From Rhodobiaceae bacterium (GTDB lineage Bacteria > Pseudomonadota > Alphaproteobacteria > Puniceispirillales > Puniceispirillaceae), in contig JAAZUU010000008.1 of NCBI GenBank assembly GCA_018624035.1, forward strand, positions 1 through 36,896: DNA of 36,896 bases. The letters are read 5' to 3'. The notes under the pieces were generated by a model. That model had not been told where the DNA came from, searched no databases, and saw only the letters and a program-made list of their open reading frames with translations. Below, in pieces: positions 3,833 through 36,069 of this stretch (positions within the stretch are counted from its first letter, which is position 1; each line of letters opens with the position of its first letter). Position numbers and translations under genes: made by a program.

Positions 3833-4756
3833 TCACCCTCTGTCACCGGGAAGTGTTTCTCTTGCCGTCACCTTCCGTTCGGACATTTCACGCCGAATGA
3901 CATAGAAAGACGAGCCAAAAATTATGCTGGCGCCCACCCATGTCCAGATATCCGACAATTCACCAAACAATATCCATCCGAACAGCATGGCAAATGGTAG
4001 GCGGGCATAATCGACACCCGCCACGAAGGAAGCATCCGCCAGCTTGTAGGCCCTGGTCAATGTGACATGTCCGATCACGGCCACCGGGCCGGTTACAGCC
4101 AGAATCAGCCAGACCTTCATTTCCGGCCATTCCCAGACATAGAGCGCCGGCAAAAGTGCCAGAGGCACCATGATCAGATGCGAGATGAAGACGATGACAA
4201 GCGGGTCATCCTTGCGCGTCAGATGTTTCACGACGAGCATCGAACAGCCCATCGCCAGAGCCGAGCCGATGGCGACGATGTGGCCAAGGCTGACCTCGGT
4301 AATTCCGGGCCTGAGAATAATGAACGCGCCGATGAACCCGATCATGATCGCAAGCCACCGCCGCAGCCGAACGGTTTCTCCAAGAAACAGGGCGGCCCCC
4401 ATCGTGGTGAAGAGCGGTGCAAGGAAGCTGAGCGCTGTCTGCTCACCGATGGGAATGAGCGTGACAGCAAAAAACCATGCCCACATCGCGATGATGCCGA
4501 CAACGGCCCGAAAGACATAGGTCTTGAATTGCGTGGTCGCGATGGTGCCGATGCCGCTGCGCAATACCAGGACCAGCAGGATCAGAAAGGCAAACAACAC
4601 ACGGCAGAAAACAGTTTGAAACGAATTTACGTCGTATTGTCCCAGCAATCTGCCAAGCGCGGCGAGAAGCGACAGGGCAACGCAGGACACAAGCATCCAG
4701 AAGGCAGACTGCAATGTCTTGTCTGCGTTTTTTAAAAAATGTGCCGAAAAATCCAA
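3833..4756 (-). CDS. DMT superfamily (EamA) transporter
   Basis: About 10 hydrophobic segments, two EamA-like halves (SFLAPLFTTMGAALFLGETVRLRRWLAIMIGFIGAFIILRPG); start codon would be TTG, so start uncertain. Confidence 0.85.
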   Translation of the reverse strand: MDFSAHFLKNADKTLQSAFWMLVSCVALSLLAALGRLLGQYDVNSFQTVFCRVLFAFLILLVLVLRSGIGTIATTQFKTYVFRAVVGIIAMWAWFFAVTLIPIGEQTALSFLAPLFTTMGAALFLGETVRLRRWLAIMIGFIGAFIILRPGITEVSLGHIVAIGSALAMGCSMLVVKHLTRKDDPLVIVFISHLIMVPLALLPALYVWEWPEMKVWLILAVTGPVAVIGHVTLTRAYKLADASFVAGVDYARLPFAMLFGWILFGELSDIWTWVGASIIFGSSFYVIRREMSERKVTARETLPGDRG

Positions 4757-4971
4757 TGGTTACCTTATCAACTGGTCGTTCGCGCCTGCCGCGAATGCAG
4801 CGAGGTGGCGGCTGTCGAAATGACAACAATTCAAATTCCACAAAGCATGCCGGCCATCACCGCCGGGCGCAACAAATCAATCAAGGGCATCGCAGGGCCT
4901 TGGCAAGTCCCGATGCCTGTGCTTACGATGAAAGCCTGGCACGACAATGTTGAGTTGCAGGAGGATTCAAT

Positions 4972-10380: not shown

Positions 10381-11809
10381 CCCTCAACCCGGCGAGATCG
10401 GGGATCGGCCGCCTCGTCGCATCATGGCCGGCAAGAACGGATTCCAGCGCCCTGGCGACTTCCACCACCAACCGGTCATTGCCGGGCGCGCTCATAACCT
10501 GAATGCCAAACGGCATGCCGGCGTGATCCAGTCCACAAGGAATGGCCACACTGCAGGCAAGCGCCATCGTCGGCAGATAGGTTATGCCAAGCCAGCGCAT
10601 ATAGGTCTCCATCGGCGTGCCGTCAATTTCGCTGATGGACCATTGATCATGCGGAAACGGTGTCGACGAGGCTGCCGGGCAGATTACCACATCGATATCT
10701 TCGAACAGATCAAGCCAGGCGCGTGCGATTCGTGATTGCTGAAGATGCGCCTTGGCCACATCGCCAAGGCTGTAGGCAAGCCCGCGGTCGACATTGTCAA
10801 CAACATTCGGGCTCAGGCGATCCCGATGATCACGGACCCGGTCGCCGTGGGCGGCAACAAAATTGACACCGCGCAGAACCTCGAAACAATTGTCACCGTC
10901 GGTGAAATCAGGGCTTGAATCAATGGCCGTGGCAAAATGATGCCGGAAGATCCCGGCGCGGTTGAGGAAAATGTCGCGGTAGGATTCCGACATGGCCGCG
11001 CTGCCAAGATCCGGCGTAATCATCGCCCGGATGCTGCCAAGATCGGCATCTTCCAGCGGGCTGTGTAATTCCGGAACCGGTGACGTGGAAAACGGATCAT
11101 GCGGATTTGGCCCCGCCTGTGTGCGAAGAAGCAGGCAGGCGTCATCGACGGTGCGCCCCATTGGCCCGAGAACCGAGAAGGGGAGCAGGCCGACGGGCCG
11201 GCCTTCAGCGGCAATCACACCGGGGCTTGGGCGTATGCCGACAACACCGCAGAAGCTGGCCGGCGTGCGCAGGCTTCCTCCATAGTCCGATCCGCTGGCA
11301 AGCGGCACCATACCGGTGGCCAGCGCCACCGCCGATCCGCCGGATGACCCGCCGCAGGTCCGTGCGGGATCGAACGGATTGCCTGTCGCGCCAAAAACAA
11401 GGTTGCGTGTGTTGGCGCCGGCCCCGAATTCCGGTGTATTCGTCTTTCCAAGGATTATGCCGCCAGCTTCACGAATATTGGCGACGACACCCTGATCCTT
11501 CGCCGGCACATGCTCGGCATATAATTTCGATCCGGATGTCGTGCGAATGCCGGCAGTCGCCTCAAGGTCCTTGATGCCGATCGGAATCCCGTGCAACAGC
11601 CCCAGCTCCCCGCCGTCAAGAACCGCTTTTTCGGCATTGCGCGCTTCCGATCTCGCCCGGTCATAGCTCTTTGTCACCATGGCATTCAACGCGCCGTCGA
11701 CACTCTCGATCCGATCAATGCAGGAATCGACAAGTTCAACCGGCGAGATGTCCTTGCGGCCAATCATCCGGCGCAATTCACTGGCAGTCAGATCACATAA
11801 ATCCGGCAT
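10376..11809 (-). CDS. Amidase signature family protein
   Basis: GIPIGIKDLEATAGIRTTSGS, GKTNTPEFGAGANT, FDPARTCGGSSGGSAVALATGMVPLASGSDYGGSLRTPASFCGVVGIRPSPG. Confidence 0.93.
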   Translation of the reverse strand: MPDLCDLTASELRRMIGRKDISPVELVDSCIDRIESVDGALNAMVTKSYDRARSEARNAEKAVLDGGELGLLHGIPIGIKDLEATAGIRTTSGSKLYAEHVPAKDQGVVANIREAGGIILGKTNTPEFGAGANTRNLVFGATGNPFDPARTCGGSSGGSAVALATGMVPLASGSDYGGSLRTPASFCGVVGIRPSPGVIAAEGRPVGLLPFSVLGPMGRTVDDACLLLRTQAGPNPHDPFSTSPVPELHSPLEDADLGSIRAMITPDLGSAAMSESYRDIFLNRAGIFRHHFATAIDSSPDFTDGDNCFEVLRGVNFVAAHGDRVRDHRDRLSPNVVDNVDRGLAYSLGDVAKAHLQQSRIARAWLDLFEDIDVVICPAASSTPFPHDQWSISEIDGTPMETYMRWLGITYLPTMALACSVAIPCGLDHAGMPFGIQVMSAPGNDRLVVEVARALESVLAGHDATRRPIPDLAGLRA

Positions 11810-11844
11810 GTTTTTCTCTTCCCTTTTCAACCTTCACATCAACT

Positions 11845-13233
11845 TCAGGCAGCTGGCGTTTCGCCGGCACCAAGATCCCACCACAGGCCCGTCATCAACC
11901 GCAAGGCGGTCCTTGTCGTGCCTTCGAGAATATGCTCGTTCGGGGCATGCTGCGAACATCCGGCATAGGAATGTGGCACCCATATTGTCGGCAACCCCAG
12001 CACATCTGCAAACACGTCGTTCGGCAGGGAGCCGCCAAGGTTCGGAATCACGGCAATGTCGTCGCCATGTGTTTCGGCAAGCGATGCGACAACCCATTTC
12101 GCCCATGGATGGTCCGGGTCAAGTCGTGTCGCATACATGGGGTCGCGCTCGGCCTCAATCTCGATGGCGTTGAAGCCGTGTTTGTCGAGATGCGTTCTCA
12201 GCATTGGCATCAATTGATCAGGGTCGGTGCCAACAACATAGCGAAGATGCCCGAAAACGATGGCCGATGGCGGAATCGCATTGGCCGGCGATTGCGGATT
12301 GCCGGTTTCAAAGGCGCGGATTTCAAAGGTATTGCTGGCGAAGACCCGCTCGGCCGGGGTCATGTCAGGCTCACCCCAGTTCGGGTTGATGGTCGGCGCA
12401 TTCTCGCCGCCGCCAACATCAAGCCTTGCGAGAGCAGCCCGTACCGAACCCGACATCTCGGTGCTGCGCCAGCCTTCGACCAGTATCTTGCCGTTCGGGT
12501 CAACCATGCTGGCAATGGCGTGCGCCATCACGATTCCCGGATTGGTCAGCAGCCCACCCCAGTTTCCGGAATGGTGGCCGCCATCATGCACGTCAAGTTT
12601 CATCGTGAAGTTAAAGACGCCGCGCGAGCCCATGAACATGGTGGGCGTGTCCGGGTGGATGCGCGGCCCGTCCGATGCGATGAAAACATCGGCGTCAAAG
12701 AGATGTTTGTTCGCCGCACAGAATTCCTTGAGCCCGGGGGACCCGCGCTCCTCGCCCATCTCGATCAGGACGATGATGTTGAAGCCCAACGCGCCACGCG
12801 TATCGAGGACAGTCTTCAACGCGGCGAGATTGATCGTATGCTGGCCTTTGTTGTCAGCCGTGCCGCGGCCATACCAGCGATGTCCGCTTTTTGTGATGAG
12901 CCACGGGTCGATCCCGTCAATCCACTGGCCGTCATACCCGGCCACGACATCACCATGCCCATAGGTCATCACCGTTGGCAGCCCGTCATCTTCCTGTCGC
13001 CGCGCCACCAGAATGGGGCCGGCATCGCTGCGCGGGTTCGGATGGATCGTGCAGTCGAACCCCATCGATGACAGAAAGGGTGTCATCTCATCGTCAAGGT
13101 AACTCTGCAGGGCGGCTTCACAGCCCGCAAGGTTGCTCTCGGTCCTGACGGCAACCCGCCGTGCCAGATCAGCCTCGAAAGAGCCATTCAAAAAATAGTC
13201 ATCAATTTGACCGAGTGCCTCGTCACGTCCCAT
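11845..13233 (-). CDS. M20 family dipeptidase
   Basis: TVMTYGHGDVVAGYDGQW, RGTADNKGQHTINLAAL, IEMGEERGSPGLKEFC, HSGNWGGLLTNPG; internal Met 13233 preferred. Confidence 0.9.
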   Translation of the reverse strand: MGRDEALGQIDDYFLNGSFEADLARRVAVRTESNLAGCEAALQSYLDDEMTPFLSSMGFDCTIHPNPRSDAGPILVARRQEDDGLPTVMTYGHGDVVAGYDGQWIDGIDPWLITKSGHRWYGRGTADNKGQHTINLAALKTVLDTRGALGFNIIVLIEMGEERGSPGLKEFCAANKHLFDADVFIASDGPRIHPDTPTMFMGSRGVFNFTMKLDVHDGGHHSGNWGGLLTNPGIVMAHAIASMVDPNGKILVEGWRSTEMSGSVRAALARLDVGGGENAPTINPNWGEPDMTPAERVFASNTFEIRAFETGNPQSPANAIPPSAIVFGHLRYVVGTDPDQLMPMLRTHLDKHGFNAIEIEAERDPMYATRLDPDHPWAKWVVASLAETHGDDIAVIPNLGGSLPNDVFADVLGLPTIWVPHSYAGCSQHAPNEHILEGTTRTALRLMTGLWWDLGAGETPAA

Positions 13234-21150: not shown

Positions 21151-23169
21151 TTACAGCTCGTCGGCCGGAATATGGCAATTGATCACATGTCCCGCCCGCA
21201 ATTGCCGCGCCGGCGGCATTTCGCTGTCACAGATCGTGCCAAGCTTGCGTGAACATCGACGCTGAAACGGACAGCCACGCGCCGGTGGAGACAGTTCCAC
21301 CACATCATCGGCGATCAGCTTTGGCGCCACATCCGGATCAGGTTCAAGAACAGCACCAAGGAGTACATCGGTATACGGGTGGAAAGGCGCCGTATAAACA
21401 GCCTCAGCCGATCCGATTTCACACAGGCGTCCCTGATACAGAACAGCGACACGGTCTGAAATGGCCTTTACCACCGCCAGATCATGCGAGACGAAGATAT
21501 AGGTTGTCCCCTGCTGGGTTTTCAATTCATCCAGAAGGTCCAGCACCGCCGCCTGAACGGACACGTCAAGAGCCGATGTTACCTCGTCACACAACACGAT
21601 CTCAGGCTCAGCGGCAAAGGCGCGGGCGATGGCGACGCGTTGCTTCTCGCCTCCGGAAAGCTGACTTGGGAGACGGTCGAGGTAATGTGCACCAAGACGG
21701 ACACGTTCAAGCATTGATACGCTTGCCTCATGGAGCGCATCGCCGGACAGGCCGAAATACAGCTGCAATGGCTGCGCCAGAATCTGGGCGACGGCGTGTC
21801 GCGGATTGAGGCTGTCATCCGGGTTCTGGAATATCATCTGGATCTGTCGCAGATTGACAGCCGGTCGATCCTCAACGCGAGGTGTAAGCGCGGTCTGGCC
21901 ATGCAGCATTATGTGACCGCGCTTTGGTGAGATCAGGCCTGCGATAGCCTTCAGAATGGTCGACTTGCCGCTGCCACTCTCACCAACAAGGCCCAGCGTC
22001 TCGCCCTTCTCAATGCTGATTCCGATGTTGTCAACAGTGGCCGGTGGCCCACCATCCGCTGGCGAGAGAACCGTTCGTAACCAGTTGTCCCTAGCATAGC
22101 TGATGGCAACATCCCGCAGGTCAAGTGCTGTGTCGCCTGTCTTGTCATCCGGCCTGTTCAATCGTGACGGCTGGCGGCTGGGCACCGGCATCCGGTCGAT
22201 CATGTCACTTTTGAAACAGCGGACAAGCTCACCTGAAGAGAGACCGACCATCTCCGGTGCCTCGGTCAGGCATTTATTGTCGGCAAGGGCACAGCGATCC
22301 GCGAAGGCACAGCCGGTTATCGCCTCGCCGGGCATCGGTGGCCGGCCGTCCAGTGCCATTGGCATGCGGGTCTGGTCGAGTCGTGGGATCGACGTCAGCA
22401 ATCCGTGGGCATAGGGGTGGCGTGGTGCCAGCAACACCTGACGCGTTGTTCCGGTCAGAACCGCCTCGCCTGCATACATGACCACAACTTGATCGCATAC
22501 TCGCGAAATGGCCCCCAGATCGTGGCTGACATAGAGCATCGCCATGTTCCGATCACGCGCGAGATCCCTCAGCAATTCAAGAATATGGGCCTGTGTTGTC
22601 ACATCAAGGCCGGTTGTCGGTTCGTCCAGAAGAAGGGCATCCGGTTCGCCGGCAAGGGCCATCGCGATAGCCACGCGCTGTTGCTGACCGCCGGATAATT
22701 CATGCGGATATCGCGATACGAGTTTGGCCGGGTCGGGCAGCCTGACCTGTGTCAGCAGCTCAACCACACGATCTGAAAACTGACCGGCATCAAGATTGCT
22801 GTGAAGACGCAGAGCTTCGGTAAGCTGTTGGCCGATCCGCATCGTCGGGGTAAGCGACTGGCCTGAATTCTGCGGTATCAGCGCAAGCCGCCCGCCCCGT
22901 ATTGCCTGCAACTCATCGCGGTCAAGAGCCAGCATGTCAACGCTGTCGAAATGCACATCACCAGAGAGTGGCCGCAATCCACGCTTGAAATAGCCCATTG
23001 CTGCGAGTGCCAGAGTGCTTTTTCCCGATCCGCTTTCACCGACAAGTCCGACACTTTCCCCCCGGTTTATCTCGAGGCTGACATTGCGCAACACCCGGAT
23101 GATCTTTCCGGTGCGGCTGGTATAGCCCACCGACAACCCATTGACGCTGATAAATGGCTGTGTCGTCAT
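21151..23169 (-). CDS. Fused tandem ABC transporter ATP-binding protein (DppD-DppF type, two NBDs)
   Basis: Two Walker A motifs (GESGSGKST twice), two signatures ([28 protein letters not shown]), two Walker B. Confidence 0.94.
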   Translation of the reverse strand: MTTQPFISVNGLSVGYTSRTGKIIRVLRNVSLEINRGESVGLVGESGSGKSTLALAAMGYFKRGLRPLSGDVHFDSVDMLALDRDELQAIRGGRLALIPQNSGQSLTPTMRIGQQLTEALRLHSNLDAGQFSDRVVELLTQVRLPDPAKLVSRYPHELSGGQQQRVAIAMALAGEPDALLLDEPTTGLDVTTQAHILELLRDLARDRNMAMLYVSHDLGAISRVCDQVVVMYAGEAVLTGTTRQVLLAPRHPYAHGLLTSIPRLDQTRMPMALDGRPPMPGEAITGCAFADRCALADNKCLTEAPEMVGLSSGELVRCFKSDMIDRMPVPSRQPSRLNRPDDKTGDTALDLRDVAISYARDNWLRTVLSPADGGPPATVDNIGISIEKGETLGLVGESGSGKSTILKAIAGLISPKRGHIMLHGQTALTPRVEDRPAVNLRQIQMIFQNPDDSLNPRHAVAQILAQPLQLYFGLSGDALHEASVSMLERVRLGAHYLDRLPSQLSGGEKQRVAIARAFAAEPEIVLCDEVTSALDVSVQAAVLDLLDELKTQQGTTYIFVSHDLAVVKAISDRVAVLYQGRLCEIGSAEAVYTAPFHPYTDVLLGAVLEPDPDVAPKLIADDVVELSPPARGCPFQRRCSRKLGTICDSEMPPARQLRAGHVINCHIPADEL

Positions 23170-23170
23170 A

Positions 23171-24058
23171 TTACATCGGGGCCTTTTGAGCACGGTCGAT
23201 GCCAAGCGCCTTTGCCAGCGCGTCCGCGGTAAGATTGATTCCGATAATCAGTGATGAGAGCGCGATCACCGGCCCGATCACGCCCCAGGGCGCAAAGGAC
23301 ATGAATCCGCGGGCGTCTGAAATCATCAGGCCCCAGTCAGGAGTTGGCGGTGACACGCCAAAGCCGAGAAATGAAAGCGAGGAGAAGGCAAGCAGCATCC
23401 ATGACCACCGCATCGCCCCCTCGACCATCAGCGTGTCCAGTACATTGGGAAGCAATTCTCGCCAGATGATGCTGATCCGCCCGTGACCGCGTGCCTTGGC
23501 CGCCCATACAAAATCGCGGGCTATGACATCATGTGTGGCGGCGCGCGCTATGCGGATCACCGGAATGCCGTAGAAAAAAGCCAGAGTCGGGATCAGAACC
23601 TCGATCCCGGTGCCGAAGGTGACGATCAACACCAGCATCTTCAAAATCCAGGGCAGGGACAAAAAGGCGTCGACAACGCGCATCAGCACCTCGTCAAGCC
23701 GCCCCCCGACAAGACCGAACAGAATGCCGATGAACCCGCCCCAGATGACGGCAAGCGGCGTCGCCACACCGGTCACCAGCAGCGCTTCACGCCCTCCCAT
23801 CAGGGTCCGGGAGAAAACATCCCGGCCAAGGTGATCGGCGCCAAGCCAGTGAATGGAGCTGGGCTGGCTCAGCATCAATGCCGAATTCTGCAATTTGTAG
23901 TCAAATGGCACGATGAAGGGACTGATGATGGCCAGAATGACGTGGCACACCACAAGCGACAGACCGATCATACCCGATGGACGGGACACGAGATCCTTCA
24001 ATATGCCGATCGCACGGCTTCCCGAAGCCTTGCTGCCATGCAGAGTACCGGCCATCAT
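23171..24058 (-). CDS. ABC transporter permease (DppC type)
   Basis: SPFIVPFDYKLQNSALMLSQPSSIHWLGADHLGRDVFSRTLMGGREALLV; FSSLSFLGFGVSPPTPDWGLMISDAR. Confidence 0.92.
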   Translation of the reverse strand: MMAGTLHGSKASGSRAIGILKDLVSRPSGMIGLSLVVCHVILAIISPFIVPFDYKLQNSALMLSQPSSIHWLGADHLGRDVFSRTLMGGREALLVTGVATPLAVIWGGFIGILFGLVGGRLDEVLMRVVDAFLSLPWILKMLVLIVTFGTGIEVLIPTLAFFYGIPVIRIARAATHDVIARDFVWAAKARGHGRISIIWRELLPNVLDTLMVEGAMRWSWMLLAFSSLSFLGFGVSPPTPDWGLMISDARGFMSFAPWGVIGPVIALSSLIIGINLTADALAKALGIDRAQKAPM

Positions 24059-25014
24059 TTCCTCATATACATCGTGCGAAGCTTGGGATTGGCAAGCATG
24101 GTCAACAGGTCCGCTGCCAGGTTCACGCAGACATAAACGCTGGCAACAATAAGCGCGATTGACTGCACCACGGGAAGATCACGATCGGAAATGGAGTCAA
24201 TCATCAGTCTGCCAAGACCGGGATAATTGAACACCACCTCAATCACCACGACGCCGCCAAGCAGCCAGGCAATTGTCAGTGCGACCACATTGATCGCGGG
24301 AAGCAGCGCGCTTGGCAGTGCATGGCGAAACACCGTCGGCCAGTAGGGCACCCCCTTCAGCGTCGCCATCTGCACGTAATCGCTGGCCATGACCTCGATC
24401 ACCGACGAGCGCACCATGCGCATGATATGCGCGCACATCACCAAGGAAAGAACGATCATTGGCAGCAGGATTTCGGGAAAGAATTCCGCTGCCGGCGCAC
24501 TTGCCGACGTCAGCACGATGCCGGGAAGCCAGCCAAGCCAGATGCTGAAGACCAGGATCAACAGGGTTGCAGAGACAAATTCAGGAATGGTCATGGCAAA
24601 AATTGCCAAAGTGGATGCGATCAGGTCAGGCAACCTGTCACGCCACAGGCCTGTGATGACGCCAAGCAGCAATGCGAGGGGCACGCCGACGCTCATCGCA
24701 CACAACGCCAGAAGCAGGGAATTCTGAAGGCGATCGCCGACAATCGTGCTGATTTTTGTTTTGCCGTCGACAGCAAGCCCAAGATCGCCTGTGACGGCGC
24801 CGCCGGCCCATTCAGCAAAACGGTCAAATGCCGGGCGGTTCAGGTCCAGATCCTTGCGGCACTGGGTCAGCAGCTCGTCATCGGCCTGATATTCACCAAG
24901 ATACTGCGTACAGGCGTCCCCCGGCAGAATTTCAACCCCGGCAAAGATGATGAGGGACACAATACACACCGTAACCAGGCCAAGCAGGATCCGTCTGAAC
25001 AGAAGCAACAGCAT
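24055..25014 (-). CDS. ABC transporter permease (DppB type)
   Basis: MLLLLFRRILLGLVTVCIVSLIIFAGVEILPGDAC; DYVQMATLKGVPYWPTVFRHALPSALLPAINV. Confidence 0.92.
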   Translation of the reverse strand: MLLLLFRRILLGLVTVCIVSLIIFAGVEILPGDACTQYLGEYQADDELLTQCRKDLDLNRPAFDRFAEWAGGAVTGDLGLAVDGKTKISTIVGDRLQNSLLLALCAMSVGVPLALLLGVITGLWRDRLPDLIASTLAIFAMTIPEFVSATLLILVFSIWLGWLPGIVLTSASAPAAEFFPEILLPMIVLSLVMCAHIMRMVRSSVIEVMASDYVQMATLKGVPYWPTVFRHALPSALLPAINVVALTIAWLLGGVVVIEVVFNYPGLGRLMIDSISDRDLPVVQSIALIVASVYVCVNLAADLLTMLANPKLRTMYMRK

Positions 25015-25131
25015 GTAATTGATTCCCCGCCTGAAGATATCGCGGCGTTACAGGTAAAGGGCCAGCGCCACACCGAAACAGATCGGATATGGACACTGGC
25101 CTTCATCCAGTCACAACGGGTGTTGATCAGC

Positions 25132-26613
25132 CTAGTTGACCGTTACCTTGTGCCACCGGATGGTGTGATTTTCCACGGCGTCGATTCCCTTGACCCCCGC
25201 ATCCATGACATAGAGCTTCGACACATGATACGGGATCAATGTTCCGGCCGTCTCATGGAGATGCTCCTGCGCCTTGACATACAGTGCCTTGCGCTTGTTG
25301 AAATCAAGCTCGCGGCGGGCTTCGCCGAGAAGGGCGTCAAAGGCCGGATCATTGTAGTATGACTCGTTCCATTTGGCGCTGGACAGGTAGATCTCATGCA
25401 GTGCCGAGTCGGCGGGACGCTCGTTCCACCGTGTTGCCGAAACGGTTTTCTGCATCCAGGTGTCACTCCAGTACCCGTCTGAGGGGACCTGCTTGATGTT
25501 GACACGGATGCCCGCTTCCGCGGCCTGCTGCTGATAGGCCTCGGCCAGAATTGGCCAGGTCGGCTCAAGCGTTGCGACATAGACATCGATATCTATGCCG
25601 TTTGGAAATCCTGCCTCGGCAAGCAGTTTCTTGGCACCGGCAATATCCTGCGGACATGCGATGTCGGCCCGATACTGGTCGTCAGGCTTGACCGGCGTGT
25701 CACAGGCAACCGTCGCCGCGCCACCCATGATGAGTTTGACAAGCTCCTCGCGATCGGCTGCCATTCTGACGGCCTTGCGCACCTTCAAATCGGTGAAAGG
25801 TGCCACGTCGGTCCGGAAGACAAGACCACGCCAGTTGCCGGTCGGCACTTCCATCATGTTGAATTTGTTGCTGCTTGCGAACATCGGCTTCTGCTGATTG
25901 GTCACAGTGTTCTCAAAATGGATCTGTCCGCCAAGCAATGCCTGCATCCGCGCCTGGCCATCACCGATTCCGATGATTTCCATTTTTGCAACGCCGGGAG
26001 CACCCTCCCAGTAATCCATGTTTGCCTCAAGCTTCGTCACACCGGCGGCATCAAAGGATACCAGCTTGAACGGACCGGTTCCGATCCCGGATGTGGCGAT
26101 GCTGTCGCCGGACCCCTCGGGGATGATCCGAAGCCGATAGTCCATAAGCTGCAATGGCATGTCGGCGAAAGGCGTCGACAGGGTGAATTTCACGGTCATG
26201 CTGTCGACAGCTTCCATCTTGTCGATCATCTTGATGGCCGAGCGGGCGGGAGATTTGTTTTCCGGATCCAGAACACGCGAGAAAGTGTAGATCACATCGC
26301 CTGAGTCAAAAGCGCTTCCATCATGGAAGGTCACGCCTTGACGCAGATTGACGGTCCATTCCGTGGCCGTGTCGTTGGACGTCCAGGATGTTGCCAGATC
26401 CGGGCTTGGTGAGCCTTCCATGCTGGGTCTGATCAACCTGCTCATCAGCTTTTCGGTGATCTGCATGACCCGCCCGCGTGAGGCTGGATCGAGATTTGAT
26501 TTGTCACCATAACCATATTCATGTGCCTGCTTGAAGGTACCGGTCGGGTTGGCCATTGCGCCTGTCCCGACCAACACCAGCGCCATTGCCGGCGCGATAA
26601 GCCATGTTTTCAT
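25132..26613 (-). CDS. ABC transporter substrate-binding protein (SBP_bac_5)
   Basis: Signal peptide MKTWLIAPAMALVLVGTGAMA; LATSWTSNDTATEWTVNLRQGVTFHDGSAFDSGDVIYTFSRVLDP. Confidence 0.92.
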   Translation of the reverse strand: MKTWLIAPAMALVLVGTGAMANPTGTFKQAHEYGYGDKSNLDPASRGRVMQITEKLMSRLIRPSMEGSPSPDLATSWTSNDTATEWTVNLRQGVTFHDGSAFDSGDVIYTFSRVLDPENKSPARSAIKMIDKMEAVDSMTVKFTLSTPFADMPLQLMDYRLRIIPEGSGDSIATSGIGTGPFKLVSFDAAGVTKLEANMDYWEGAPGVAKMEIIGIGDGQARMQALLGGQIHFENTVTNQQKPMFASSNKFNMMEVPTGNWRGLVFRTDVAPFTDLKVRKAVRMAADREELVKLIMGGAATVACDTPVKPDDQYRADIACPQDIAGAKKLLAEAGFPNGIDIDVYVATLEPTWPILAEAYQQQAAEAGIRVNIKQVPSDGYWSDTWMQKTVSATRWNERPADSALHEIYLSSAKWNESYYNDPAFDALLGEARRELDFNKRKALYVKAQEHLHETAGTLIPYHVSKLYVMDAGVKGIDAVENHTIRWHKVTVN

Positions 26614-26930
26614 CGAAGTTCCTCCTGATAACGTCACCCTGACCCCGGTTCGCAGGGATGCAGATCACGCCATAGCCATTGGTTTCGGGAGGCTTTGGGA
26701 CCCCGGTCCCGTGCTTCCCCCTGTTTTGGTGGCAGAAGTATGAGTTTCCCACCGCATGATAACAAATAGAATTTATGAATATATCGATGCATAAAGCGGA
26801 TGAATTCGTTTTTTACATACAGATTGCCTATCATGGAAAACCCGCGCAGAATTGGCGCTGTCAGATGTTGTTCAGTCGAACCGTTTCCTGTCGATGACAG
26901 CTCATGATGTCTGCAATCAGGGCATTTCAG

Positions 26931-27023: not shown

Positions 27024-27758
27024 TTGATGAAGGGCATGTCTGTGGGCACGCGGGTGCAAATCTTTGCTGTTGGTGGTGGTGGTTTCACTGATCCAGAGGG
27101 CGTCTGTGCAGATGACAGGAATCTTGAAGATTACCTTCTGGCACTCGCCGGGCCAGTATCAAGGCTCAGAATTGGCTATATTGGCCACGCCAGCAATGAT
27201 GATCCCATTCGCATAGACGCCTTTCACCATCGGTTTCAATATTGCGCCTCCACGGCGATCCTCGACATTGAGGCCACCGCCGCAGGGGCAAGCGCGTTCC
27301 TCGCCGATCTCGACATGATCTATGTTGGTGGAGGCAGAACAGCAATGATGCTGGATCATTGGCGTGATACCGGCATTGCCGAAGAACTGCTGGCGGCAGC
27401 GGACAGGGGGGTCATCCTGAGTGGTGTCAGTGCCGGCGCCATTTGCTGGTTTTCCGATCTTCTGCTTGGCACGGCAGAGGATGGTTACGAGGTTCACTGC
27501 GGGCTTGGCCTGCTGGGTGGAAGTGCCTGTCCTCACTACCGGAACGAACCGCCGCGCCGCGCGGCCTATGACCATCACATCGCCAGCGGTCATCTGGCCG
27601 CCGGTCTGGCGATTGATGACGGGGTGGGGGTGCACATATCAGACGGCGTTGTCATCGACATTGTCAGGGCCCGCGCAGATGCCGGCAATGCCTATCATGT
27701 TGCGCCTCACCAGACAGGTGTTGATGTTCAGCCCCTTCAAGCAGGTCATCATCTGTAG
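27024..27758 (+). CDS. Peptidase E-like / type 1 glutamine amidotransferase-like protein (S51)
   Basis: VQIFAVGGGGFTD, DMIYVGGGRTAMML, GVILSGVSAGAICWFSDLL (nucleophile Ser), GLGLLGGSACPHY. Confidence 0.88.
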   Translation: MMKGMSVGTRVQIFAVGGGGFTDPEGVCADDRNLEDYLLALAGPVSRLRIGYIGHASNDDPIRIDAFHHRFQYCASTAILDIEATAAGASAFLADLDMIYVGGGRTAMMLDHWRDTGIAEELLAAADRGVILSGVSAGAICWFSDLLLGTAEDGYEVHCGLGLLGGSACPHYRNEPPRRAAYDHHIASGHLAAGLAIDDGVGVHISDGVVIDIVRARADAGNAYHVAPHQTGVDVQPLQAGHHL

Positions 27759-27812: not shown

Positions 27813-28733
27813 CTAGATATTATCGCCATCACGAATGATCGGATCGGCCTCGAGGGCCTCTATCATGGCGTCGGCAAGTTGACGTGTCTCGCGGGTCATG
27901 ACCTCAAGCCCGCGCGTTATGATGCCGATATGATATGTCAGACGCTGTTGGATGGGCCTTACAACCACACCACCCGCGCTGGCGGACATCCGGGCTGAAA
28001 ACGGATCCACAAGCGCCGGCAGACCGGCCGCGCGCACCAGCATCGCGGCTGCCAGCATGTTCGCCACGCTGTAGCGCGCATTTTTCTGGAATCTGGCAGC
28101 CAGCGTCTCGTCCATACCCTGCATCTCCAGCGGATAGACGTTGCCAAAAGTGATGAATTCCTCGATCCCCGCCACATCTTCCAGATCCAGAACCGCCTGT
28201 GAACCGGCAAGGGCATGGCCCTCTGGTATCAGGGCCACATAATTCACCTCGGTCTGATAAAGGCTCTGAACACCTTCATAGGGTGGCGAGCGGGACACAA
28301 TGCCAAGATCGAACTGGTGAAGTCTCACCGAATCGACAATAGCGGGTGTATTGCGGATATAGACAGTGGTGTGCGTGTCATCCCTGTGCGAGCGGAGCTG
28401 GCCCAGAACATCAGGCAGCAATGACATGGTGAATGTCGGAATTACCCCGACCGATACCTTGCCAACCGCCGTATCGCGGATCGCTGCTGCCAGATCATCG
28501 AGTCTTTCAATGTTCAGGAAGGCACTTTCCACAGCCTGATGAAACCGGCGCGCCTCCAACGTTGCCGCGATACCGCGGCCGCGGCGTACAAACAACGTAA
28601 ACCCAAGCCCGGACTCCAGCTCATGGACCAACCGCGTCACACTTGGTTGCGATACCCGCATTTCCTTGGCGGCGCCGGTAATCGATCCAAGCCGCATGAC
28701 CGTGTCGAAGGCTTTGAGCTGTCTGAAATTCAT
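27813..28733 (-). CDS. LysR family transcriptional regulator
   Basis: MNFRQLKAFDTVMRLGSITGAAKEMRVSQPSVTRLVHELESGLGFTLFVRRGRGIAATLEA HTH plus substrate-binding domain. Confidence 0.95.
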   Translation of the reverse strand: MNFRQLKAFDTVMRLGSITGAAKEMRVSQPSVTRLVHELESGLGFTLFVRRGRGIAATLEARRFHQAVESAFLNIERLDDLAAAIRDTAVGKVSVGVIPTFTMSLLPDVLGQLRSHRDDTHTTVYIRNTPAIVDSVRLHQFDLGIVSRSPPYEGVQSLYQTEVNYVALIPEGHALAGSQAVLDLEDVAGIEEFITFGNVYPLEMQGMDETLAARFQKNARYSVANMLAAAMLVRAAGLPALVDPFSARMSASAGGVVVRPIQQRLTYHIGIITRGLEVMTRETRQLADAMIEALEADPIIRDGDNI

Positions 28734-28755: not shown

Positions 28756-28770
28756 ATAGCTTTTTCCTAT
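28756..28770. promoter_or_regulatory. Candidate LysR-type binding site ATAG-N7-CTAT (T-N11-A)
   Basis: ATAGCTTTTTCCTAT in the lysR/oxidase divergent intergenic region. Confidence 0.5.
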
Positions 28771-28849
28771 GAATTCATCCGATAATTATATTTGCATTAT
28801 AATTTTTGTGTTTGGTACCTTGCTTTTCAGAGATGTAAAGGGTCGACCA

Positions 28850-30028
28850 GTGGTCAAACAGCTTTTTTCTGTTGATGAGGCGCGCCGGCGGGCGAGAAAC
28901 CGGCTGCCCCGAATGATGTTTGATTTCATCGATGGAGCCTCAGGTGACGAGACCCTCCGCGGCCTCAATTCCTCAGCAATCGATCAGATCAGATTGATGC
29001 CGAGGGTGCTGATCGATGTCAGCGAGCGCGATCTGTCGAGCAGCATTCTGGATCAGAAAACCGGCATGCCGTTCGGCATCGCGCCGATGGGCATGTGTGC
29101 CCTTGCCTGGCCCGGGGCCGATCGGGCTCTGGCCGGAGAAGCGGCGCGGCGGCGGATTCCGCTCTGTGTATCAACAGCATCGTCAATGGCTCTTGAGCAG
29201 GTCATCGAGCTTGCGGAAGGTCACGCCTGGTTCCAGCTCTATGCCGACCAGTCGGATGAGTTCGTCGATGAACTGGTCGGACGCGCGGCGAGCGCAGACT
29301 ATCAGGTGCTGGTTCTGACAGTTGATGTGCCGATCCCCTCGGTGCGGCCGCGTGATCGTCGCAACGGCTTTACGTTTCCGATGCGCTGGGGGCTGCCACA
29401 GCTGCGGGATTTCGCCACGCATCCACATTGGTCACTCGCCACTCTCATCCATGCCCTCAGCCACGGGATGCCGCAGCCGATGAACTATGCCACCTCGAGC
29501 GGCAAGACCAGTTTTGTGCGTAACGCCAGCAGGGCAAGGGCCGGCTGGTCCTTCCTCGCGGCCTTGCGAGACAGATGGCCACGAAAGCTGGTGGTCAAGG
29601 GTGTGCAATGTCCCGAAGATGCCATACGCATGAAATCAATGGGCATAGATTCGATCTATGTGTCCAACCATGGTGGCCGGCAGCTGAATGCTGCGCCGGC
29701 CGCCATAGAGTCGCTGGCGCAAATCAGGCAGGCTGTTGGCGCGAACTTCCCGCTGATTTTTGACAGCGGGGTGCGCAATGGCGAGCATGTCGTCAAGGCA
29801 CTTGCGACGGGAGCAGATTTTGTCATGTTTGGTCGCAGCGTAATGTATGGGCTTGGTGCTGCCGGTGGGCGCGGCCTGTCCGATGTTCTCGATCTGATTG
29901 GTCATGAAGTCAGCACCGTGATGGGACTTGTGGGTTGCCGGCAGTCGGGGGAAATCGACAGCGGCTGCCTTGCCAGTCAGCACGGCAATCCGGCAATCCA
30001 TGTCATTTCGGAAAGGGTGGCTGAATGA
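28850..30028 (+). CDS. FMN-dependent alpha-hydroxy-acid oxidase/dehydrogenase (LldD/glycolate-oxidase family)
   Basis: FDFIDGASGDETLRGLNSSAIDQIRLMPRVLIDVSERDLS, PFGIAPMGMCALAWPGAD, VSNHGGRQLNAAPAAIESL, FDSGVRNGEHVVKALATGADFVMFGRS; GTG 28850 with AAAGGG RBS preferred. Confidence 0.93.
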   Translation: MVKQLFSVDEARRRARNRLPRMMFDFIDGASGDETLRGLNSSAIDQIRLMPRVLIDVSERDLSSSILDQKTGMPFGIAPMGMCALAWPGADRALAGEAARRRIPLCVSTASSMALEQVIELAEGHAWFQLYADQSDEFVDELVGRAASADYQVLVLTVDVPIPSVRPRDRRNGFTFPMRWGLPQLRDFATHPHWSLATLIHALSHGMPQPMNYATSSGKTSFVRNASRARAGWSFLAALRDRWPRKLVVKGVQCPEDAIRMKSMGIDSIYVSNHGGRQLNAAPAAIESLAQIRQAVGANFPLIFDSGVRNGEHVVKALATGADFVMFGRSVMYGLGAAGGRGLSDVLDLIGHEVSTVMGLVGCRQSGEIDSGCLASQHGNPAIHVISERVAE

Positions 30029-31767
30029 CTGAAACAACCAAGATGCGTGGCGGTGCCATTCTGGCGCGGGCGCTTCAGGAAAAGGGTGTTGAGCATGTCT
30101 TCACGCTGTCCGGCGGTTTTTGCAATCCGGCGCTGGAAGGGTTCATGGAATGCCAGATGAAGGTAATCAATTGTCCCCATGAGCAGATTGCAGGACATCT
30201 TGCCGACGGGCATACACGCATCACGCGCAAACCTGCCGTCTGCCTTGTCGGGCCCGAGGGATTCTCGAACGCGGTGCCGGCCATGATGGAAGCCTGGGGT
30301 GAACGATCACCGGTCATTTTCGTCACCGGATCAAGCACATTGAAGCGGCAGGGATCAGGCGGGTTCAAGGAAATCGATGATGTCGCCATTGCCAAGCCGC
30401 TGACAAAATACAGCGCAACCATCACCGATGGGGAGCGGATCAATGAATTTGTCGACCGCGCCTACAAGATTGCCACCAATGGCTATCCCGGCGCGGTGCA
30501 TCTCAGCCTTCCTGTCGATATCATGTTTTCGTCCTTTGCAGAGGATGCAGGCCGTCAGGAACGCCCCTTTGACCTGACCCCGCAAGCCCCGGCACGGAGT
30601 TGGCCGGAGCCATCCCGTCTGCGGCTGGTGCTTGATAAACTGACTGCTGCCAGCCGTCCGGTGCTCATTGGCGGGCATGGTGTGTGGTGGTCGGGTGCGA
30701 AGGCCAGTCTTGAAGAGGCCGGTCGTCTCCTCGGCATTCCGGTTTTCAATATTCCCTATCACCAGAAGTTGCTTGGCGAGGAGTGTGAGGCCTATATGGG
30801 GCTCGCGGACATCCATCAATATCCCCCCTCTGCCGACGCCTTTCATGAGTCTGACCTTGTCCTCATGGTGGGCGCGCGGCTCGACAACCAGATGAATTTT
30901 GGCAACCCGCCACTGTTCCCCGCGACTGCCGAACTGGTCTGTATCAACGGCTCGCATGAGGAAATTGACCTTAACCGCGCCGCCGACATGACGCTGCTCA
31001 GCGATCCGGGGGCGTTTCTGGAGGCATTGGTCGATCTTGCAAAATCGCCCGATTTTCAGGGTGACCGGAGCTGGTATGATCTGAATCGTCGTCGCCGCGC
31101 TGACTGGGTGGCCAGAATGGTTGAAGACATGGAGCAAGAGGCCGCGGCCCCGGAATTCGGTGGTCGTATTCATCCGCTGCAGCTGGCGCTTGACGTACAG
31201 CAGGCGATGGGTGACGAGGACTGGCTGGTGATTGATGGTGGCAACACGCATTTCTGGTCCGAGATCGCGGTGAATATTGCCGGCTTTCAGGGCAGGAAAC
31301 TTGGCGGCATCCTGCATCCGGGGACCTTCAGCCTTCTTGGTGTCGGTGTATCCTTCGCGATATCCGCAAAGAACACCCATCCTGACAGGAATGTCGTGCT
31401 GATCAGTGGCGACGGCGCGTTTCTTTCAGGCGGGCTGTCTATCGAAGCTGCCTTTCAGGAGAACCGTCCGATCACCGTGATCATCGACAATAACGGCGGG
31501 CTGGACTGCATCTCGCAACAGCAGGAACGCCTGTTCGAGAGTGGCACTCATTTCGCAACAGACTTCCGCGACATTCCCTTTCACACGATGTTTGAAGGCC
31601 TTGGTGGGCATGGAGAACTGGTTACGAGGCGCGAGGACATCATTCCCGCTGTCGAGCGGGCGATTGCCAGCGGCAGGACAGCCTGCGTCAATGTGAAGGT
31701 GAAGGGCGTTATCAGCCCGATTGTACTTGCGACCACCTCAAAGCGTGACAAGGCCTCAATCGAGTAG
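30025..31767 (+). CDS. Thiamine diphosphate-binding enzyme (acetolactate synthase / 2-hydroxyacyl-CoA lyase / oxalyl-CoA decarboxylase superfamily)
   Basis: GGGILARALQEKGVEHVFTLSGG-type N-terminus (observed: GGAILARALQEKGVEHVFTLSGG), HEQIAGHLADGHTRITRKPAVCLVGPEG, GGFKEIDDVAIAKPLTKYS, GDGAFLSGGLSIEAAFQENRPITVIIDNNGG ThDP motif; overlaps upstream stop. Confidence 0.92.
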   Translation: MTETTKMRGGAILARALQEKGVEHVFTLSGGFCNPALEGFMECQMKVINCPHEQIAGHLADGHTRITRKPAVCLVGPEGFSNAVPAMMEAWGERSPVIFVTGSSTLKRQGSGGFKEIDDVAIAKPLTKYSATITDGERINEFVDRAYKIATNGYPGAVHLSLPVDIMFSSFAEDAGRQERPFDLTPQAPARSWPEPSRLRLVLDKLTAASRPVLIGGHGVWWSGAKASLEEAGRLLGIPVFNIPYHQKLLGEECEAYMGLADIHQYPPSADAFHESDLVLMVGARLDNQMNFGNPPLFPATAELVCINGSHEEIDLNRAADMTLLSDPGAFLEALVDLAKSPDFQGDRSWYDLNRRRRADWVARMVEDMEQEAAAPEFGGRIHPLQLALDVQQAMGDEDWLVIDGGNTHFWSEIAVNIAGFQGRKLGGILHPGTFSLLGVGVSFAISAKNTHPDRNVVLISGDGAFLSGGLSIEAAFQENRPITVIIDNNGGLDCISQQQERLFESGTHFATDFRDIPFHTMFEGLGGHGELVTRREDIIPAVERAIASGRTACVNVKVKGVISPIVLATTSKRDKASIE

Positions 31768-31790: not shown

Positions 31791-32138
31791 ATGGCAACAC
31801 TCTCATCTCATTTGCTCAATGGTGTCGATGGCACCCACGCGGCACAGGTTGGCATGACGCTGACCCGCATCGCGGCGGATGGCGGGCGTGAGCTGGTGAT
31901 ATCGGCAAAGAGCGACGATGGAGGGCGGTTGACGGTCAATGTTGATACGCCTGCCAACGCCAGATACGAAATGGCCATCGCCAGCGGCGCTTATTTTCAA
32001 GCCCTGAAGCTGCCACGGACAGGCATGCAGATTGTCGAGGAGATTGTGATCCGTTTCAGCATGCCGGACCCGGAGGCGCGCTATCATATTCCGGTGATAA
32101 TGTCCCCGAACAGCTATTCCTGCTGGTGGTCCGAGTGA
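31791..32138 (+). CDS. Transthyretin-like / 5-hydroxyisourate hydrolase-family protein lacking the YRGS C-terminus
   Basis: LSSHLLNGVDGTHAAQVGMTL N-terminus, YHIPVIMSPNSYSCWWSE C-terminus compared with HIUase YHVPLLLS..YSTYRGS. Confidence 0.8.
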   Translation: MATLSSHLLNGVDGTHAAQVGMTLTRIAADGGRELVISAKSDDGGRLTVNVDTPANARYEMAIASGAYFQALKLPRTGMQIVEEIVIRFSMPDPEARYHIPVIMSPNSYSCWWSE

Positions 32139-32188
32139 TCAACGCAGTATCGGACAGGGTGGATTGAGTGAGCCAATCGGGTCTGAAT

Positions 32189-33292
32189 ATGTCGCGCCGG
32201 ATCCGGCGCACGCCCTACACCGATCGTGTCGAGGCGCACGGTGTGCGCGGGTTCAGTGTTGTGAACCACATGCTCCTGCCAAAGGCCTATGGCCCGTCTG
32301 TCGAGGAGGATTACTGGCATCTTCGCGAGCATGTGCAGATCTGGGATGTGGCATGCCAGCGGCAGGTTGAAATCCGTGGCCCCGACGCGGCCCGTCTGGT
32401 CCAGTTGATGACACCGCGTGACCTGCGCAATGCGCGCGTTGGTCAGGGTCTGTATGTTCCCCTGATTGATGAGGCGGCCGGCATGCTGAACGATCCGGTG
32501 CTGCAAAAGCTCGATGATGACCGCTTTTGGCTGTCGATCGCGGATTCCGACATCCTTCTGTGGGCCAAGGGTCTGGCCTACGGCATGCAGCTTGACGTGC
32601 AGATTGATGAACCGGACGTCTCGCCACTTGCGGTGCAGGGCCCGAAGGCCGGCACACTGATGGCCAGCCTGTTCGGGGAGGCGATCAGGGATCTTCCCTA
32701 TTTCGGGTTTGCCATGTTTGATGTTCTTGGCACACGCCAGCTTATTGCCAGGTCCGGCTACAGCAAACAGGGCGGTTACGAGATTTATCTCGAAGGCAGC
32801 CATCTTGGGGCTGGTCTGTGGGATCTGATCTGGGAAGCCGGTCAGGACCTGAACATCACTCCCGGATGCCCGAATCTGATCGAACGCATTGAAGGGGGTC
32901 TGATTTCCTGTGGCAACGAGTTCACCCGCGCCAACAACCCCCTTGAGTGCGGATTCCGGCAGCTGTGTCATCTTGGTGATGATGTTGATTATATCGGCAG
33001 GCCGGCGCTGCAACGCATTGCCAGCCGCGGACCGGTACAACGCCTGTCGGGAATTCGTTTCGGTGGTGGCAGGACCCCGCCATGTGGCAAACCATTCCCG
33101 CTAACCACGCCGGAAGGCCTGCAGGTTGGACAGATCACATCCGGAATATTCTCCCCGCGCCTCGACTGCAATGTCGGCCTGTCGATGGTGGCGAGCACAC
33201 ATTGGGACATCGGCACGTCCCTGGTGGTTCACACGCCCGACGGATTGGCCCGCGAGGCAACCGTTTCCGCGCTGCCTTTCAGCGATTCCTGA
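32189..33292 (+). CDS. GcvT-like THF-dependent aminomethyltransferase/demethylase, DmdA-like
   Basis: RRIRRTPYTDRVEAHGVRGFSVVNHMLLPKAYGPSVEEDYWHLREHVQIWDVACQRQVEIRG, ARSGYSKQGGYEIYLEG, PGCPNLIERIEGGL match remembered DmdA-family features. Confidence 0.82.
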   Translation: MSRRIRRTPYTDRVEAHGVRGFSVVNHMLLPKAYGPSVEEDYWHLREHVQIWDVACQRQVEIRGPDAARLVQLMTPRDLRNARVGQGLYVPLIDEAAGMLNDPVLQKLDDDRFWLSIADSDILLWAKGLAYGMQLDVQIDEPDVSPLAVQGPKAGTLMASLFGEAIRDLPYFGFAMFDVLGTRQLIARSGYSKQGGYEIYLEGSHLGAGLWDLIWEAGQDLNITPGCPNLIERIEGGLISCGNEFTRANNPLECGFRQLCHLGDDVDYIGRPALQRIASRGPVQRLSGIRFGGGRTPPCGKPFPLTTPEGLQVGQITSGIFSPRLDCNVGLSMVASTHWDIGTSLVVHTPDGLAREATVSALPFSDS

Positions 33293-33373
33293 CATGGCAG
33301 CACTGCCATGCCCGGCTGCAAACTGGCGATGATACTCCGGGTACCGATATCGAACCCTCTTCCAGAGGTGACC

Positions 33374-33628
33374 ATGAATCCCGATTTTGCCATGGGGCAG
33401 CGTGCCAGCCTTCATCACGGGATTGTTCATGCCGGTGAGGCGGACAGCCATATGGTGACGCCTGCTGATCTGTCGCGTCTGACATCAGCGGATTGCGGTG
33501 CGCTGATCGCATCGCACGCTGCCGCACCTGATAGGGCTGTGACGGTTCCCATGCGCCACGGTCAGGACGGCCCGGAGCGAGGCAACCCGATCATGCTGTC
33601 CGGCGTGGCGCTGGAAGAGGCGTCCTGA
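33374..33628 (+). pseudogene. Truncated/degenerate MobA/MocA-like nucleotidyltransferase remnant
   Basis: NPDFAMGQRASLHHGI..TPADLSRLTSADCGALIASH..AVTVPMRHGQDGPERGNPIML matches the family's central region; no N-terminal GxGxRMG signature and no LGDMP segment. Confidence 0.5.
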
Positions 33629-34512: not shown

Positions 34513-34762
34513 AATTTCTGCCTCCTTGGCTGCTTGGAAGAAGCGGTTCTCATGAAACGAATATCAATGGAATTTAACGGTGGTAGCGGTCCAGCTTGCG
34601 CATGTTTCTTTGGTGCCGACCTCGTTGAGGTTCTGGATGCGCAAGACAGTGACAGTTTCGACTTCACAGATTTTTTGTATTCTGATCAGGTCAAGCGCGA
34701 CATGTATTCGGGCCAACACCGGGCGCTGGACAGGGGCCGGTAAACCGGCGCAGGATAACGCT

Positions 34763-35389
34763 ATGCCGCATGATCATCACGATGACAACCCGCACCGCCT
34801 TCTGCCGTCCGAACCCGCGCTTCGGGTGAAGGCGCTTGAGACCATTCTGGTCGAGAAAGGGCTGATCGACCCGGCCGCGCTGGACGCCATCATAGACCTT
34901 TATGAGCGCGATATTGGTCCGCAGATCGGGGCCGGTCTTGTCGCCCGCGCCTGGAACGATCCCGAATTCCGTGCCGCCTTGCTGACCGATGCCGACCGGG
35001 TGATCACCGAGCTTGGCCATGGCGGCCGCCAGGGCGAGCATGTGGTAGTGGTGGAAAATACGCCTGACACCCACAACCTTGTCGTCTGCACATTGTGCAG
35101 CTGTTACCCCTGGCCGCTGCTTGGCATTCCGCCGGGATGGTACAAGTCCGATTCCTACCGGGCCCGCGCTGTGCGGGAGCCGCGCGCTGTCCTCGCCGAA
35201 TTCGGCGTCACCCTTGCCGAGGGTACCACGGCGCGGGTGTGGGATTCGACAGCCGAGATCCGCTATCTGGTGTTGCCGATGCGGCCGGAAGGAACCGAAG
35301 GTCTGGATGAAGCCGCGCTTGCCAGCCTTGTTACCCGTGATTCGATGATCGGCGCCGGCCTGCCACGTTCTGCCGGGACAGCGGCATGA
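34763..35389 (+). CDS. Nitrile hydratase subunit alpha (cobalt-type) or related hydratase
   Basis: VVCTLCSCYPWPLLGIPPGWYKSDSYRARAVREPRAVLAEFG; Cys cluster CTLCSC. Confidence 0.93.
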   Translation: MPHDHHDDNPHRLLPSEPALRVKALETILVEKGLIDPAALDAIIDLYERDIGPQIGAGLVARAWNDPEFRAALLTDADRVITELGHGGRQGEHVVVVENTPDTHNLVVCTLCSCYPWPLLGIPPGWYKSDSYRARAVREPRAVLAEFGVTLAEGTTARVWDSTAEIRYLVLPMRPEGTEGLDEAALASLVTRDSMIGAGLPRSAGTAA

Positions 35390-36069
35390 CCCGAATCCAT
35401 GACATGGGCGGGCGCTTCGGCGATGGCCCGGTGCCGCGTGAGGATGATGAATCCCGCATCTTTGCCAAAGACTGGCATGGGCGCGCCCTCGCACTTACGG
35501 TGGCGGCCGGCGCGCTTGGCAAATGGAACATCGATGCCTCGCGACATGTGAAGGAATGCCTGCCACCGGCGGATTATGCCAAATTCGGCTATTACGAAAA
35601 ATGGCTTGCCGGCCTTGCCAATCTTCTGGTCGAACATGGTATTGCCAGCCCCGAGGAAATCGCCGCCGGTAGGAGTGACGCGCCGGCCCCGGATGACCTT
35701 GTCGCGCGCCGCCTTGATGCCGCGCGGGTGAAAGCGGCGCTTCGCAGCGGCGGCCCGTCAGCGCGTTACAGCAGCGACGGCCCGGCTTTTGCCACCGGCG
35801 CGAAGGTGCGGACCAGCGCGATTGCCGGCAACCGGACGCAGAATGGTGGCCATACCCGCCTTCCCGCCTATGCCGCCGGCCGCGTCGGCACCATTGTTCT
35901 GCATCACGGTGCGCATGTCTTTCCCGACAGCAACGCCCATTTCAATGGTGAGGCCCCGCAGCATCTCTACACGGTCAGCTTTGCTGCCGGCGATCTATGG
36001 CAGCATGCCGAATCCCCGCATGACGAGGTGCGGCTTGATCTGTGGGAAGACTATCTGGAGCCGGCATGA
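35386..36069 (+). CDS. Nitrile hydratase subunit beta
   Basis: MTRIHDMGGRFGDGPV, FAKDWHGRALALTVAAG, TRLPAYAAGRVGTIVLHHGAHVFPDSNAHFNGEAPQHLYTVSFAAGDLW; overlaps alpha stop. Confidence 0.93.
   Translation: MTRIHDMGGRFGDGPVPREDDESRIFAKDWHGRALALTVAAGALGKWNIDASRHVKECLPPADYAKFGYYEKWLAGLANLLVEHGIASPEEIAAGRSDAPAPDDLVARRLDAARVKAALRSGGPSARYSSDGPAFATGAKVRTSAIAGNRTQNGGHTRLPAYAAGRVGTIVLHHGAHVFPDSNAHFNGEAPQHLYTVSFAAGDLWQHAESPHDEVRLDLWEDYLEPA

Follow-up and report, generated by a model that had tools for sequence, protein, structure and literature searches.

The window, i.e. the whole stretch of 36,896 nucleotides that was analysed, carries at positions 31791-32138 (+) an uninterrupted ATG...TGA frame for a protein of 115 aa, MATLSSHLLNGVDG...YHIPVIMSPNSYSCWWSE, located, as the earlier note had placed it, between a gene for a ThDP-dependent enzyme upstream (30025-31767) and a DmdA-like gene downstream (32168-33292). 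The C-terminal octapeptide of this protein is SYSCWWSE in place of the SYSTYRGS of 5-hydroxyisourate hydrolases (HIUases), its length being unchanged, and the protein and its homologues with the same kind of end are called here W-tail proteins. The features of the locus are the following:

21151-26637 (-): Opp/Dpp-type ABC transporter (ATPase 21151-23205, permeases 23171-24058 and 24055-25014, binding protein 25132-26637)
27024-27758 (+): peptidase S51, a conserved SAR116 neighbour (PF03575; 14 loci)
27813-28733 (-): LysR regulator, divergent from the operon (Pfam; place conserved in SAR116 loci)
28769-30028 (+): FMN-dependent 2-hydroxyacid dehydrogenase/oxidase, overlapping the start of the ThDP gene by 4 bp (PF01070, 391 bits)
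30025-31767 (+): ThDP-dependent enzyme, the obligate partner, with catalytic Glu53 and a GDG...NN motif (Pfam TPP_enzyme N/M/C)
31791-32138 (+): W-tail gene of the HIUase/transthyretin (TTR) fold, 115 aa (PF00576, AF2, Foldseek, W-tail clade)
31809-31811 (+): codon of H7, catalytic His kept, equivalent to His7 of kpHIUH (invariant in W-tail and YRGS rows; role from PMC8272043)
31836-31838 (+): codon of H16, a family-specific His (39/39 W-tail rows; Pro in 24/25 YRGS rows)
31926-31928 (+): codon of R46, catalytic Arg kept (invariant in both groups)
32085-32087 (+): codon of H99 in YHIP, catalytic His kept (invariant in both groups)
32115-32135 (+): replaced tail YSCWWSE, residues 109-115, canonical YSTYRGS (translation, orthologue comparison)
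32168-33292 (+): DmdA-family tetrahydrofolate-dependent demethylase of an operon-specific clade (NF009133, 583 bits; cut-off 410)

The HIUase/transthyretin-like identity that the earlier note had read from the letters was borne out by an HMM profile check, in which PF00576 matched the protein with 57.2 bits (cut-off 25.3), and by the structure prediction that the same note had proposed. The AF2 monomer model, computed from 28 family members, has a pLDDT of 94, and its top solved matches in Foldseek are HIUases (TM 0.82-0.87), the closest structures being 4q14, 8uw4 and 2igl, so that profile, model and structure search concur on the HIUase/transthyretin superfamily PF00576. The hydroxyisourate hydrolase model TIGR02962 matches 28/28 aligned W-tail members at E <= 0.001, and the window protein reaches 60.4 bits with it, below the equivalog cut-off of 87.45. 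Among the marks of this equivalog, the H/R/H residues are present, and the score, the YRGS tail and the urate neighbours are missing. As its score stays under the equivalog threshold and its tail is not YRGS, the W-tail protein is, as judged from its sequence, a member of the PF00576 superfamily that is not to be classed as a HIUase; it may have HIUase-like chemistry.

To compare the two groups residue by residue, 39 W-tail rows (one locus being present twice), the most distant of them about 37% identical to the window protein, were set against 25 YRGS rows, all of which have the Y, R, G, S tail. Both groups have H7, R46, H99, L9, G14, G45, P101 and P106 without exception; the retention of the N-terminal His (SSH, H7) and of the YHxP His (YHIP, H99) had been noticed earlier, and the comparison adds the retention of a third catalytic residue, Arg46, and the change of Pro to His at residue 16. 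Together with H7, R46 and H99, the residues W112, S114 and H16 are identical in 39/39 W-tail rows. The switches from YRGS to W-tail proteins are T6 to S, D10 to N, T11 to G/A/S, P16 to H (39/39), N42 to D and the loss of D44 and, in the tail, T111 to C/V/I/T, Y112 to W (39/39), R113 to W/L/A and others, and G114 to S (39/39). The replacement of YRGS by WWSE claimed in the earlier note stands for the window protein, but the literal WWSE is not conserved among homologues, whose signature is W-x-S-x in the YRGS position (39/39 rows); variation occurs at the second W and at the last residue, and there are W-tail proteins that extend 1-5 residues beyond the usual end. The family has a new conserved set composed of N10, a small residue 11, H16, W112 and S114.

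In the Klebsiella HIUase, two His activate water and an Arg polarises the carbonyl, Tyr105 and Ser108 of the terminus bind HIU, and deletion of the tetrapeptide greatly suppresses catalysis (PMC8272043). The tail Tyr is essential in the S. dublin TLP, where Y108F fails (PMC4324301). Read against the residue roles in the Klebsiella enzyme, the switches indicate that the W-tail protein has retained the residues of the chemistry and exchanged those that hold the substrate. In the alignment with the zebrafish HIUase, residue 11 corresponds to I16 and residue 112 to Y116, i.e. to the two positions whose joint change (I16A/Y116T) is reported as fundamental to open the HIUase site into a hormone channel with thyroxine binding (PMC4324301).

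A second, canonical HIUase with a YRGS tail is encoded in the same genome on contig C178 (121.7 bits), where it adjoins genes of OHCU decarboxylase, xanthine dehydrogenase subunits, XdhC and urate oxidase, which form a complete urate operon. Beside the W-tail gene, no urate-degradation genes were found either in its operon or in the W-tail loci read, in agreement with the earlier statement that none lie near it. Since the YRGS HIUase is situated inside the complete urate operon, urate breakdown is handled by the C178 copy and not by the W-tail locus. Compared with the HIUases (TIGR02962; PucM, HpxT, UraH; EC 3.5.2.17), the W-tail protein has the same fold and length, the equivalents of H7/R46/H99 and the YHxP and SPxxYS stretches, whereas it differs by W-x-S for YRGS, P16H, D10N, N42D and the small residue 11, by the lack of urate genes nearby and by a score under the curated cut-off.

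In GTDB species genomes, a scan found 33 loci that encode a W-tail protein, and genome searches added more. The hosts belong to SAR116/Puniceispirillaceae, Rhodobacteraceae, Roseobacteraceae, Stappiaceae (Roseibium, Labrenzia), Kiloniella and a few unplaced Alphaproteobacteria, and identity to the window protein within the family is 37-67%. Cultured hosts of the cluster include Kiloniella spongiae MEBiC09566 (L058), Roseibium album CECT 5095 (L054) and Leisingera sp. ANG-Vp (L060). A tree computed after exclusion of the tail columns has one branch, with a support of 100/100, that separates its 38 W-tail rows from its 25 YRGS rows. The search of 399 genomes of the phylum yielded one extra W-tail case, in an alphaproteobacterium (G672), and none beyond Alphaproteobacteria, the other matches with inspected ends being YRGS enzymes; this absence is provisional, since the distribution reflects sampled genomes and peptide patterns favouring close relatives. 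Plasmids (199 records) gave only weaker matches, all below 38% identity among the matches listed, and the best ones listed are annotated uraH.

The same ThDP gene lies immediately upstream of the W-tail gene in 33/33 loci and in all additional loci, and the collection of homologues that the earlier note had suggested, with a view to co-occurrence with the operon, thus returned this arrangement in every locus found. The ThDP stop overlaps the TTR-fold start (TAATG, TGATG or similar) in 15 loci, the gap in the window being 23 bp. Of 385 alphaproteobacterial genomes, exactly six have the W-tail protein, and the same six have the ThDP orthologue; four of these are of one family, so that they do not count as six independent events. 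The ThDP orthologues are 69-93% identical and the next homologues in the class are at most 32% identical, and on the strength of this gap (orthologues at least 69%) the ThDP enzyme can be regarded as a discrete family. Glu53 and GDG...NN are invariant in 20 sequences, and the C-terminal end is very strongly conserved, with an invariant ASIE. The closest solved relatives are 2-hydroxyacyl-CoA lyase/synthase and benzaldehyde lyase; with these and with oxalyl-CoA decarboxylase the partner shares the ThDP fold, the catalytic Glu and GDG...NN, whereas its identity in fold matches is about 22-27%, it falls far under every NCBIfam cut-off and it is always paired with the TTR-fold protein. The ThDP model from 20 sequences was mediocre (pLDDT 76), with fold matches of high rmsd, and served for family confirmation alone. 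The pairwise-distance correlation between the ThDP enzyme and the W-tail protein (r 0.905) is uninformative as a test of physical contact, since it does not exceed the values of the other operon genes (all operon genes 0.90-0.95). In Labrenzia sp. DG1229 (L063), two ThDP gene copies were observed in one locus, one preceding the TTR-fold gene behind Tct genes and the other behind LysR and the FMN enzyme, cut by the locus end (copies at 4271-6001 and 11207-12343).

The typical gene order is Opp-type ABC transporter, LysR, FMN 2-hydroxyacid dehydrogenase, ThDP enzyme, TTR-fold protein and DmdA-type demethylase. The FMN enzyme, which has (S)-mandelate dehydrogenase among its closest solved structures, is present in 29/33 loci and the DmdA-type gene in 27/33. 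Counterparts of the ABC binding protein with 79-89% identity adjoin the operon in relatives, and the transporter varies with lineage (Opp ABC, TRAP in L059 and L061, Tct in L063). The SAR116 relatives have an extra peptidase S51 and an MTTB methyltransferase, whose gene lies between peptidase S51 and LysR in L033 (470-2032), L036, L038, L041-L043, L046 and L091; it is missing at the corresponding place in the window. The ThDP/W-tail pair persists without the FMN enzyme and DmdA in L064, L065 and L090: in L064 and L065 it lies between two PhyH oxygenases and formate dehydrogenase-like genes, and in L090 (G366) it comes after aconitase and asparaginase genes and before a short-chain dehydrogenase. 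A 143-aa protein without Pfam match, which occurs in two SAR116 genomes (L064, L065), is encoded in L064 (6350-6781) between the TTR-fold and the formate dehydrogenase-like genes. G161 (L089) has, upstream, a gene for a homocysteine S-methyltransferase and a second gene of the GcvT type. Since the flanking genes differ between lineages and the pair persists, the pair is the constant core, and the remaining genes probably feed or drain it.

The operon DmdA scores 583 bits with NF009133, above the DmdA cut-off of 410, and groups with the P. ubique DmdA (3tfh), but inside the DmdA family it forms a clade of its own, linked to the operon (support 100). This separate clade, together with a second, non-operon DmdA over the cut-off in G161, makes a substrate other than DMSP plausible for the operon enzyme. 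Two more DmdA-like genes, with 369 and 285 bits and below the DmdA cut-off, were seen on contigs C154 and C166 of G000, the latter gene being cut by the contig end.

Taken together, the fold family, the retention of H7/R46/H99, the loss of YRGS and the pairing with the ThDP enzyme form the sequence-level basis on which we propose that the W-tail protein is probably a neofunctionalised TTR-fold hydrolase, acting on a compound that the ThDP enzyme consumes or produces and not on 5-hydroxyisourate. The earlier note had thought of a protein for another substrate, either a neofunctionalised hydrolase or a binding protein, and this idea gains from the separate clade, the loss of the tail, the canonical HIUase elsewhere and the constant non-urate pairing; between its two forms, the invariance of H7/R46/H99 makes us lean to the hydrolase. 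The two-fold active site at the dimer-dimer interface would be reshaped, with the bulky side chain shifted from the side of residue 11 (Thr/Ile in HIUases, Gly/Ala/Ser in W-tail proteins) to the tail (Tyr to Trp), and the reshaped pocket could receive a different carbonyl compound, of which a lactam, lactone or otherwise activated acyl bond would be hydrolysed.

The strict one-to-one adjacency, the co-occurrence and the translational coupling, and the fact that the cluster has no other constant part than the pair, could also be explained if the W-tail protein served the ThDP enzyme as a non-catalytic subunit or activator that would dock to it and gate or stabilise its active site. TTR-fold proteins form tetramers of 222 symmetry, as many ThDP proteins do, and the small subunits of acetohydroxyacid synthase act on the large one in such a way. 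The strong conservation of the C-terminal end of the ThDP enzyme with its invariant ASIE is in agreement with this role, and the identity of the W-tail proteins (37-67%), lower than that of their ThDP partners (69-93%), could suit a non-catalytic accessory subunit and is a counterpoint to the hydrolase. However, a pure scaffold would not be expected to keep invariant all three HIUase catalytic residues together with the new H16, and neither a fusion nor interface evidence was found; we consider such a subunit rather unlikely, although it ranks first among the alternatives.

A ligand-binding or sensing protein without catalysis, carrying a pathway intermediate in the manner of transthyretin, would account for the changes at the tail and at residue 11, the same positions that turn the zebrafish HIUase into a thyroxine binder (Y116T/I16A), but the size change at the tail is opposite (Trp where the binder has Thr) and no sequence lacks H7, R46 or H99, which makes it very unlikely. 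Vertebrate transthyretin itself is not known to have the equivalents of these catalytic residues; it shares the fold with the W-tail protein, and both depart from HIUase at the tail Tyr and at residue 11 (I16 in zebrafish), whereas the W-tail protein keeps the catalytic His and Arg, all three residues being present, has the small residue on one side only with Trp on the tail, and is encoded in a bacterial operon. Slightly less credible still is an ordinary HIUase acting on 5-hydroxyisourate with a tolerated tail change: the PF00576 match, the retained H/R/H residues and the TIGR02962 matches of all 28 aligned members would fit it, but the tail Tyr is essential in known enzymes (PMC4324301), the score of 60.4 bits is below the TIGR02962 cut-off, the gene never adjoins urate genes in the loci read, and a canonical YRGS copy stands in the complete urate operon of the same genome. 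A decaying duplicate, a sequencing error or a frameshift is hardly conceivable, since in-frame orthologues in many genera share the tail signature and the invariant residues; a frameshift at the tail, which the earlier note had named as a finding that could overturn its reading, did not materialise, and an error hiding YRGS is ruled out by the in-frame W-x-S of relatives.

Returning to the hydrolase, the module would in most genomes import a methylated 2-hydroxyacid-like compound, which the FMN enzyme would oxidise and the ThDP enzyme cleave or decarboxylate; the W-tail protein would hydrolyse the intermediate from the ThDP step, and the enzyme of the DmdA clade would pass methyl groups to tetrahydrofolate. 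The order of the steps and the substrate are inferred, and the pathway model is weak since the flanking enzymes differ between lineages. We advance only tentatively that the ThDP and TTR-fold proteins are an undescribed two-component enzyme in an equally undescribed marine pathway for methylated 2-hydroxyacid-like compounds, in which the ThDP part would make or cleave a C-C bond adjacent to a carbonyl and the HIUase-like part would hydrolyse an intermediate, e.g. a formyl/acyl adduct, lactone or lactam. The module is probably tied to methylated sulfonium or ammonium compounds. DsyD, a purine-type lyase domain, is predicted to decarboxylate DMSHB (4-dimethylsulfonio-2-hydroxybutyrate) (PMC11306096), and this prediction, with the 2-hydroxyacid oxidase and the DmdA relative in the operon, leads us to consider DMSHB as a candidate substrate only.

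If the hydrolase reading is true, the W-tail family would be a bacterial counterpart of the switch from HIUase to transthyretin, at the same two positions and with catalysis apparently kept, the role of the tail in substrate choice would become directly testable, and an undescribed catabolic module would be indicated in SAR116 and roseobacters, two abundant groups of the surface ocean. No prior account of the gene pair or of the W-tail protein in SAR116 was found in the open-licence literature. A name given by similarity would be hydroxyisourate hydrolase, and any reconstruction of purine catabolism would be misled by it.

Directly behind the DmdA gene, a 106-aa ORF of the window (33308-33628, +) is matched solely by the later part of a MobA/MocA-type nucleotidyltransferase, with 25.7 bits, just below the Pfam cut-off, and may be what remains of a truncated gene. 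At 34580-36069 (+), genes for the alpha and beta subunits of nitrile hydratase were observed; the family match of the alpha subunit begins at residue 78, indicating an N-terminal extension or a too-early start, and the same protein is also over the cut-off of the NHLP leader-peptide model TIGR03793.
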